Shown: piece after piece, positions 14,202-17,324 of the stretch | Numbering within the stretch: position 1 is the stretch's first letter | Layout of the letters: each line of letters begins with the position of its first letter | From: Candidatus Celerinatantimonas neptuna | GTDB taxonomy: Bacteria; Pseudomonadota; Gammaproteobacteria; Enterobacterales; Celerinatantimonadaceae | DNA length: 64,000 bases | NCBI GenBank assembly: GCA_911810475.1 | Contig: OU461276.1 | Span: forward strand, 675,501-739,500 | Reading direction: 5' to 3' | Made by a program: the position numbers and the translations under genes | Notes under the pieces: generated by a model | Database searches by the model: none | What the model saw: only the letters and a program-made list of their open reading frames with translations | Told to the model about the DNA's origin: nothing

Positions 14202-14678
14202 CTACTTATCTTGTAAATAAATGCTATTCAAATAATCGACCAGTTGATCGCCACTATCCGAATGCCCTATCAACTCAGCATAACGCCCATAATCCTGATA
14301 AAACAATTTAATCGTCAGATCAGCATCATCAAGCATTCCTACGCCTTTTTCCGGCCATTCAACAATCGCTAACTGACCTGGTCCAAAATAATCACGCACA
14401 CCAATAAACTCAAGTTCTTCCGGATCAGCCAAACGATAAAGATCAAAATGGTTAACCTGCCAGGGATCAAGCTCATAAGGCTCAACCAGCGTATAAGTCG
14501 GGCTTTTAACATTTCCCTGATGGCCCAATCCCTGAATAATGCCCCGGGTTAGCGTCGTTTTCCCCGCACCAAGATCACCTTCCAAAAAAATCGTCATTGC
14601 CTGATTAAGACCTCTTGCAATATTGCGTCCCAGAGCAACAGTTGCTTGAGCATCATTCAGGTTAATTTGCCAATTCAT
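14202..14678 (-). CDS. tsaE: TsaE, ATPase of the tRNA t6A37 synthesis complex
   Basis: TsaE is the P-loop ATPase that works with TsaB and TsaD to put threonylcarbamoyl on A37 of ANN-decoding tRNAs. The product is 158 residues. The Walker A motif GDLGAGKTTLTRG is at about residues 35-47, followed by SPTYTLVEPY and HFDLYRL. The start overlaps the end of nnrD by 4 bases, a coupling also known elsewhere. Confidence 0.97.
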   Translation of the reverse strand: MNWQINLNDAQATVALGRNIARGLNQAMTIFLEGDLGAGKTTLTRGIIQGLGHQGNVKSPTYTLVEPYELDPWQVNHFDLYRLADPEELEFIGVRDYFGPGQLAIVEWPEKGVGMLDDADLTIKLFYQDYGRYAELIGHSDSGDQLVDYLNSIYLQDK

Positions 14679-16192
14679 TCCATCTGTTCCGGATTCACCA
14701 ATACCCTTATTTCGGGTAATAAATCGCCAGCGAGCATTCCCCGTTGACCGTTCACTGCAGCCCTGTCTGCCGCTTCACCATGCAAACATACAGCCAAACA
14801 TGCTGCATCAACTGCCGGCACATGCTGAGCAAGCAAACCACCGATTATACCTGAAAGGACATCGCCCATGCCACCACTAGCCATTCCCGGATTACCAACC
14901 GCTAATACATAGCATTGTTCATCTGGTGTTGCGACTATCGTACCTGCGCCTTTAAGCACAACAACCGCATCATATCGTCTGGCAATTTTGATAGCCGCAG
15001 CAAAACGATCCTGCTCAACATCTCTCACCTGACACGCTAACAATCGTGCGGCCTCCCCCGGATGAGGAGTTAAAATCCAGTTTCCTCGGGCTTTTGGCTC
15101 TTGTGCCAATAAATTAAGGCCATCGGCATCAAGCACTAATGGCTTATCACTCTCAAGTGCATACTGCCAGAGCCACTTCGACCAGTCACTTTGTCCAAGC
15201 CCAGGCCCCACAACTAAAACACTCGCCTGTTGAATTGACCGGCTCAACTGTACCTGATCAGTCAGCGTTAATCCGTGGGCCATAAGTTCAGGACGACCAG
15301 ACAAAACAATTGAAAGATGCTCAGGACGCGTTAGTACTTCAATGAGTCCGGCTCCGGTCCGCTGACACGCTTCACCGGCCAATCGAATCGCACCAGCAGT
15401 GCCATAATCACCGCCAAGCAAAACAACTCGACCAAAATACCCTTTATGAGCAATAACACTGCGAAACGGCAACCATTTTTTAAAACGGGCATAATCACCT
15501 CGCTGTACACGCCCTTTGTGCCAATTTTCTAAAGGCTTAGACAGTCCCAAATTCGAATACAGAATGTCTCCACAGTAAGCAGCTGCCTGACCGGTCAAAA
15601 GGCCTTGTTTGATCCCAATAAATGTAATTGTCGCAGTAGCTTTAACGGCAATTCCAAGTGGTTGACCGGTATCAGCACTCAACCCGGAAGGTATATCCAG
15701 AGCCAGAACAGGAGAGTTCAATGCATTCATTTGAGTAATCAAATCAATACAGTCAGAGCGAACAGCGCCTTTAAGGCCCGATCCCAATAATGCATCAATC
15801 ACAACATCACACGGACCAGCCTGAGACAATGTATCCAACATCCGAACATTTGCACCCTGTAATTTTTGCCAGGCACAAGATGCTTCATTAGGGAAATGGA
15901 CCGGATCCCCATGCAACAATAATTCAACAGTAAACCCCTGCTCCGCAGCGAGACGGGCTACAACTAAGCCATCTCCACCATTGTTTCCTCCTCCCGCTAT
16001 AATTAATAAGCGTCGGGCATCAGGCCAGTGGCAACGAAGTAGATGATAACTACCCGTTCCGGCTCGCTCCATTAATTGATCTAAAGATATCTTGCCCTGT
16101 TCAGCAAGTTGGGGTTCGGCTTGTTTAACCTGTTCGGCTGTCCATAATGAATATGGTAAAGTCGCGGTAAAATCATCTGTAATATTAACCAT
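14675..16192 (-). CDS. nnrD: Bifunctional NAD(P)HX epimerase / ADP-dependent NAD(P)HX dehydratase
   Basis: This enzyme repairs hydrated NADH and NADPH. The N-terminal NnrE domain epimerises S/R-NAD(P)HX (GGGNNGGDGLVVARLA, then ALLGSGLKG). The C-terminal ribokinase-like NnrD domain dehydrates it using ADP (LTPHPGEAARLL, GNPGMASGGMGDVLSG). I choose the ATG at 16190-16192 (505 residues). A 32-codon upstream extension would lie inside queG and has no family counterpart. The start codon shares the palindrome CCATGG with the divergent queG start. Confidence 0.95.
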   Translation of the reverse strand: MVNITDDFTATLPYSLWTAEQVKQAEPQLAEQGKISLDQLMERAGTGSYHLLRCHWPDARRLLIIAGGGNNGGDGLVVARLAAEQGFTVELLLHGDPVHFPNEASCAWQKLQGANVRMLDTLSQAGPCDVVIDALLGSGLKGAVRSDCIDLITQMNALNSPVLALDIPSGLSADTGQPLGIAVKATATITFIGIKQGLLTGQAAAYCGDILYSNLGLSKPLENWHKGRVQRGDYARFKKWLPFRSVIAHKGYFGRVVLLGGDYGTAGAIRLAGEACQRTGAGLIEVLTRPEHLSIVLSGRPELMAHGLTLTDQVQLSRSIQQASVLVVGPGLGQSDWSKWLWQYALESDKPLVLDADGLNLLAQEPKARGNWILTPHPGEAARLLACQVRDVEQDRFAAAIKIARRYDAVVVLKGAGTIVATPDEQCYVLAVGNPGMASGGMGDVLSGIIGGLLAQHVPAVDAACLAVCLHGEAADRAAVNGQRGMLAGDLLPEIRVLVNPEQME

Positions 16193-17324
16193 GGTTCCAG
16201 ATCCTAACATCGACTTACAAAGATTAGCCCAAGATATCAAGCTCTGGGGAAAAGCGCTAGGCTTTAACGATATTGCCATCACTGACACTGATGTTAGTAC
16301 TCACCATCAGGCTTACCAGCATTGACTAGCACAAAACTATCATGGCCGGATGAGTTTCTTAGAACGCAATCAGGAACTTCGTAACAATCCAACATTATTG
16401 CATCCGGGCACATTGCGGGTGATTAGCGTCAGAATGAATTACCTCCCCCGTAATGCGGGCTTTGCGACGACTTTAAAAAATCCCAATCAAGCTTATATCA
16501 GCCGTTATGCTTTAGGACGAGACTACCATAAAGTGCTTCGCAAACGCTTAAAGCATCTGGCAGAGAAGATCAAAACTGTCTACGCCGGCCTTGAATACCG
16601 TCCTTTTGTTGACTCAGCTCCCGTCATGGAGCGCCCTCTGGCAAAAAAAGCAGGTCTTGGATGGACAGGGAAACATACTCTGTTAATCAATCAGCACGAT
16701 AGTTCCTGGTTTTTTCTAGGAGAACTACTGGTAAATATTCCTCTCCCTATCGATCAATCGGTTCAAGAGCAATGCGGTCATTGTGTCGCATGTATGAAAC
16801 AATGCCCAACTCAGGCAATTATTTCCCCTTACCAGGTTGATGCAAGGCGCTGTATCTCTTATTTAACCATCGAAAATGACGGACCGAGCCCTGAACAATT
16901 CAGGCCATTTATGGGCAACCGTATCTATGGGTGTGATGATTGTCAGCTTGTCTGTCCCTGGAATCGCCATAGCACTCTTGGCACAGAATCTGATTTTCTG
17001 GCACGACACGAACTTGACAAAGTATCCCTTTTAACCTAATTCCAATGGGATGAGAGCACATTTCTCAAAAAAACAGAAGGGTCACCCATTCGTCGTATCG
17101 GCTATATATGATGGCAACGAAATATAGCAGTAGCACTTGGGAATACCCCCGCTTCACCAAGTATTATAACGACCTTAGAAGCACACAAGAAAACAGCAAC
17201 CCCATTAGTGCAAGAACATATTAACTGAGCTCTAAAACAACAGCATAAGAAACTGGCAACGATAACGCGTCAGACGCAACGATTAATCCGAATTATTGAA
17301 AAGGGTCTTCCCCGGGATGCCTGA
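16191..17324 (+). pseudogene. queG: Epoxyqueuosine reductase QueG, broken by four in-frame stop codons
   Basis: QueG reduces epoxyqueuosine to queuosine in tRNA wobble position 34, using cobalamin and two [4Fe-4S] clusters. From the ATG at 16191 one frame runs 378 codons to the natural end EKGLPRDA and a TGA at 17322, the length of intact QueG (about 379). It is interrupted by TGA at 16323-16325, TAA at 17037-17039, TGA at 17109-17111 and TGA at 17226-17228. By comparison with remembered E. coli QueG the lost residues are Trp, probably Leu, Arg and Trp, each one base change from a stop. No frameshift is seen. Both cluster motifs, CGHCVACMKQCP and CDDCQLVCPW, are intact. An in-frame ATG at 16350 could give a 229-residue fragment, but it lacks both ends. 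Confidence 0.93.

Follow-up and report, generated by a model that had tools for sequence, protein, structure and literature searches.

Vitamin B12 is used by most bacteria, many of which obtain it solely by import (PMC6461909), and the way in which a lineage sheds its dependence on this vitamin therefore matters for the ecology of microbial communities. For the enzymes QueG and MetH, QueH and MetE have been named as the B12-free alternatives (PMC6461909, PMC10378866). QueG requires cobalamin, its absence tracks the lack of cobalamin use, and in Rickettsia QueH takes over (PMC5615194). Most bacteria carry both MetH and MetE (PMC6461909). A full-text search of the queuosine literature for a QueG pseudogene returned the Rickettsia paper only (PMC5615194).

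We have analysed a stretch of 64 kb, here called the window, which corresponds to positions 675501–739500 of the closed, single-contig genome (4,132,137 bases) of Candidatus Celerinatantimonas neptuna. The queG found there is similar to the described QueG (TIGR00276) in its full-length homology, its Fe-S motifs and its position beside nnr, but it contains four internal stops and is thus not a working gene as read. The situation resembles that in Rickettsia (PMC5615194) in that there is no working QueG, QueH is present and the cobalamin-dependent enzymes are gone. However, in Rickettsia queG is absent and the parasite genome is small, whereas here queG is still recognisable, the genome has 4.1 Mb, and a congener keeps both queG and queH intact. 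As in the MetH/MetE redundancy (PMC6461909), a single reaction is served within the family by one enzyme that depends on cobalamin and one that does not, but in the present genome metH has decayed and metE alone is intact. The features are collected in Table 1.

Table 1. Coordinates of the features discussed in the text; numbers without a prefix are positions in the window.
Feature	Coordinates	Strand	Remarks
queG pseudogene, full QueG frame, 377 codons	16191..17324	+	translation, TIGR00276 match, single genome copy, alignment with 28 relatives
Internal stop TGA, codon 45	16323..16325	+	invariant Trp (TGG) in 28/28 relatives
Internal stop TAA, codon 283	17037..17039	+	Leu in most relatives, Val once; CTG in the congener
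Internal stop TGA, codon 307	17109..17111	+	variable column (Arg, Gln, others); the congener has CGT (Arg)
Internal stop TGA, codon 346	17226..17228	+	invariant Trp (TGG) in 28/28 relatives
First Fe-S cysteine motif, CGHCVACMKQCP	16773..16808	+	intact in the queG read-through translation
Second Fe-S cysteine motif, CDDCQLVCPW	16932..16961	+	intact in the queG read-through translation
Longest open piece in queG, 229 codons, internal ATG to TAA	16350..17039	+	53 QueG codons missing at the start and 95 at the end
nnr (NAD(P)H-hydrate repair)	14675..16192	-	divergent from queG; Pfam and position
metH pseudogene	C1:874713-878024 (L212:7621-11052)	-	12 stops and at least 6 frame changes; the adjacent metA is intact
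btuB, broken	C1:2110744-2112793 (L213)	+	2 frameshifts and 1 TGA; behind a cobalamin riboswitch
queH copy 1, intact	C1:2787965-2788489	+	profile match, 229 bits; conserved cysteines present
queH copy 2, intact	C1:2510008-2510532	-	profile match, 224 bits; conserved cysteines present

The frame of queG opens with ATG 16191 and closes with its natural TGA at 17322–17324, and its read-through translation matches the NCBIfam profile TIGR00276 with 489 bits over positions 1–337 of 337. An earlier note on this DNA had reported four nonsense codons (at 16323, 17037, 17109 and 17226), no frameshift and two intact Fe-S motifs, all of which were borne out by translation of the full frame. It had also given the affected residues as Trp, Leu, Arg and Trp, and the corresponding columns of the alignment with 28 relatives show this to be right. 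The additional statement that each of these residues is one substitution away from a stop is true of TGG and of TTA and CGA, the ancestral codons that were inferred, but not of the CTG and CGT of the congener, which are two steps away. The alignment has 106 invariant columns, in which three further changes were found besides the stops. The intact QueG of the congener is 70% identical to the queG product here, in line with the identities of the neighbouring genes (nnr 61%, tsaE 65%, amiB 71%, mutL 63%, miaA 65% and HflX 84%). A search of the whole closed 4.13 Mb genome gave no second queG, the window copy being the only one, and queG is thus lost as an intact gene, as had been proposed. Among the 159 genomes of the order, internal stops in QueG occur in only one of the 108 genes above the cut-off, namely in that of the present genome.

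The decay is targeted, since queG is the sole clear loss among the 82 genes covered by a 344 kb comparison with the congener. General decay of the genome was considered and rejected, the 81 other compared genes being essentially clean. Two other matches with one stop each (mraZ-like and ftsQ-like) are due to differences at the start or end only, and the comparison also gave one short frame-split match.

The last step of the queuosine pathway has a B12-free enzyme, QueH, which makes queG dispensable. The use of QueH had been listed in the earlier note as one of three ways of coping with a loss of queG, together with a suggested search for tgt and queA. Two intact queH copies were indeed found, and both tgt and queA are intact. 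With these genes in place the pathway should remain complete, and, judging from the gene content, queuosine is most likely still made in the tRNA via Tgt, QueA and QueH, which would mean that QueH is active in the cell. The two queH copies share 70% identity, and each of them is ca 61–62% identical to the queH of the congener, which has a long branch. Neither copy appears to be clearly orthologous to this single queH.

The congener has an intact queG together with its one queH, while the other searched members of the family have queG and lack queH. In the survey of the 159 genomes of the order, 101 were found to have QueG only, 38 QueH only, seven both (including the present genome) and 13 neither, and there is thus a strong mutual exclusion of the two enzymes (Fisher P ca 1e-18). 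Two further species of the family show apparent damage in queA or tgt: queA of one of them (G007:C1:1625601-1626614) has two in-frame TGA codons, and tgt of the other (G004:C16:27656-28752) is split with a TAA. Each of these could be either a real loss or a sequence error.

Since QueG needs cobalamin, further B12 genes were also checked. The metH gene is a pseudogene, the stops of which were counted over 1139 alignable codons. It is intact in 11 of the 12 other relatives searched, the congener among them, and metE is intact in the present genome. The receptor gene btuB is broken as well, and the cobalamin riboswitch in front of it is retained (85 bits). The order trmA–riboswitch–btuB–brnQ–murI is common to this genome and the congener, in which btuB is intact. 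A frame of 1907 aa beside btuB and murI was discarded, since it arises from 5000 masked N bases. A search for the B12-binding domain (PF02310) gave only the MetH remnant here and only MetH in the congener. Both B12 users that were found, queG and metH, are thus broken together with the receptor, while their substitutes, queH and metE, remain intact. The number of stops is one in 578 codons for btuB, as compared to 12 in 1139 for metH (P 0.07). The fewer stops in btuB give a weak hint about the order of the losses, from which we infer that the B12 users may have decayed before the receptor.

In our view, queG is very probably a pseudogene whose decay forms part of a general abandonment of vitamin B12. 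It is also likely that the bacterium is abandoning the vitamin altogether, with both users and the receptor dying together, QueH and MetE taking over, and a congener that has the full set. B12 would then no longer be taken up or used in this organism. QueG uses cobalamin as its cofactor in the reduction of epoxyqueuosine to queuosine and QueH performs the same reaction without it, while MetE stands in for the cobalamin-dependent MetH. As QueH and MetE are both carried, neither of the B12-dependent enzymes would be needed. The selection on queG and metH was most likely lifted by a life that is poor in B12 or independent of it, with the two substitutes in place. These genes gained stops at similar density, metH acquiring frameshifts too, and btuB also broke. 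The earlier note had interpreted the locus as a loss of queG with QueH as a possible replacement, which agrees with the present results, or as an unusual read-through, which does not (see below). The wider cause, namely that metH and btuB have decayed in parallel, lay beyond its view.

A narrower explanation is that queG became redundant through QueH alone and that the losses of metH and btuB are coincidental. The presence of two queH copies is consistent with this, and the near-exclusion of QueG and QueH across the order would be sufficient to account for queG by itself. However, queG is the only clear loss among the 82 genes, and yet both B12 enzymes and the receptor that were examined are all broken, and the stop densities of queG and metH are equal. 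We therefore consider the coincidence to be unlikely.

The loss of constraint was examined using a codon model that lets a lineage evolve first under constraint and then neutrally, with stops allowed. According to this model, the constraint on queG ended ca 0.03 neutral substitutions per site ago (support range roughly 0.01–0.06), and no neutral tail was obtained for the intact neighbour and control genes. This value is short compared to the split from the congener and supports in part the suggestion of a recent loss. The sense codons of queG alone give a neutral tail of zero, with an upper bound of about 0.027 per site, and omega on its own branch is not raised, whereas the stops alone would require a tail of about 0.1. 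Stops are also in excess over missense changes at the invariant sites of queG, with P between 0.001 and 0.06 depending on the mutation model. The discordance in metH was found to be the same in kind, with 0.014 from the sense codons and about 0.14 from the stops. Given that the surely dead metH yields just 0.014, the test based on sense codons has little power, and since metH shows the same mismatch between stops and missense changes, this mismatch is a weak point against queG being a pseudogene. The apparent excess of stops probably reflects either poor performance of the model on saturated branches or a shared mutation bias.

The same control applies to the absence of indels. The stop densities of the two genes are equal (12/1139 codons in metH and 4/377 in queG, Fisher P = 1), and at the frameshift density of metH the probability of zero frameshifts in the 377 codons of queG is 0.09–0.16. 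An excess of constraint deduced from the missing indels was accordingly rejected. The ratio of stops to frameshifts, 4:0 against 13:8, gives P 0.27. Stops without indels are thus ordinary for this genome, and the view that four of them call for a special explanation is not supported.

These results also bear on the possibility that the four stops are suppressed or recoded and that full-length QueG is produced, which was at first favoured by the sense codons and by the excess of stops over missense changes. The 377-codon frame and its Fe-S motifs are intact, the omega on its own branch is not raised, and two of the three TGA codons are at invariant Trp positions. However, TAA is involved as well as TGA, and codon 307 is not in a Trp column. 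The frameshifted metH, which is untranslatable as one frame, equals queG in stop density and shows the same stop/sense mismatch, which removes the original argument. The constraint on the queG frame is not beyond that of a dead gene in the same genome. In addition, the nearby intact genes have no internal stops, and QueG is unnecessary given QueH. Read-through, as raised in the earlier note, is thus very improbable.

We have also considered a truncated, partly functional QueG of 229 aa, translated from ATG 16350 to the TAA at 17037. Although these open codons hold both Fe-S motifs, the product would fall short of a model that spans the domain by 53 codons at the N-terminus and 95 at the C-terminus, and such a short form is present in 0 of the 28 relatives, which makes this option hardly credible. 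Finally, errors of sequencing or assembly are extremely improbable: the stops are known from one strain of the species, but the genome is a closed single contig in which the other compared genes are essentially clean, and four isolated substitutions in one gene together with damage in two functionally linked genes are unlike errors.

Returning to the loss of B12 use as the preferred explanation, it is important to point out that a loss of QueG backed by QueH is a known pattern. The proposed concerted exit from B12, next to a congener that uses the vitamin, is a clean new example, in which an intermediate step is captured in one genome: broken B12 genes, intact substitutes and a riboswitch that still precedes the damaged receptor gene, with the complete set present in the congener. 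If this reading is true, the pair would constitute a natural experiment on what drives the loss of a shared vitamin in a gammaproteobacterium with a large genome. The analysis also calls for caution, as a lone gene with several stops and a retained frame is not evidence for recoding, and it is useful to take a frameshifted pseudogene from the same genome as a control.

A last observation concerns the neighbourhood of queG, which adjoins nnr in the same placement as in the relatives. The nnr gene heads the run nnr–tsaE–amiB–mutL–miaA, and if it begins at ATG 16192, the start codons of nnr and queG appear to be common to one CATG (window positions 16185–16200). With this start, the upstream region of the run would fall within queG, in its 5' part. 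A deletion at this place would damage genes that the cell needs, which may protect this end of queG.
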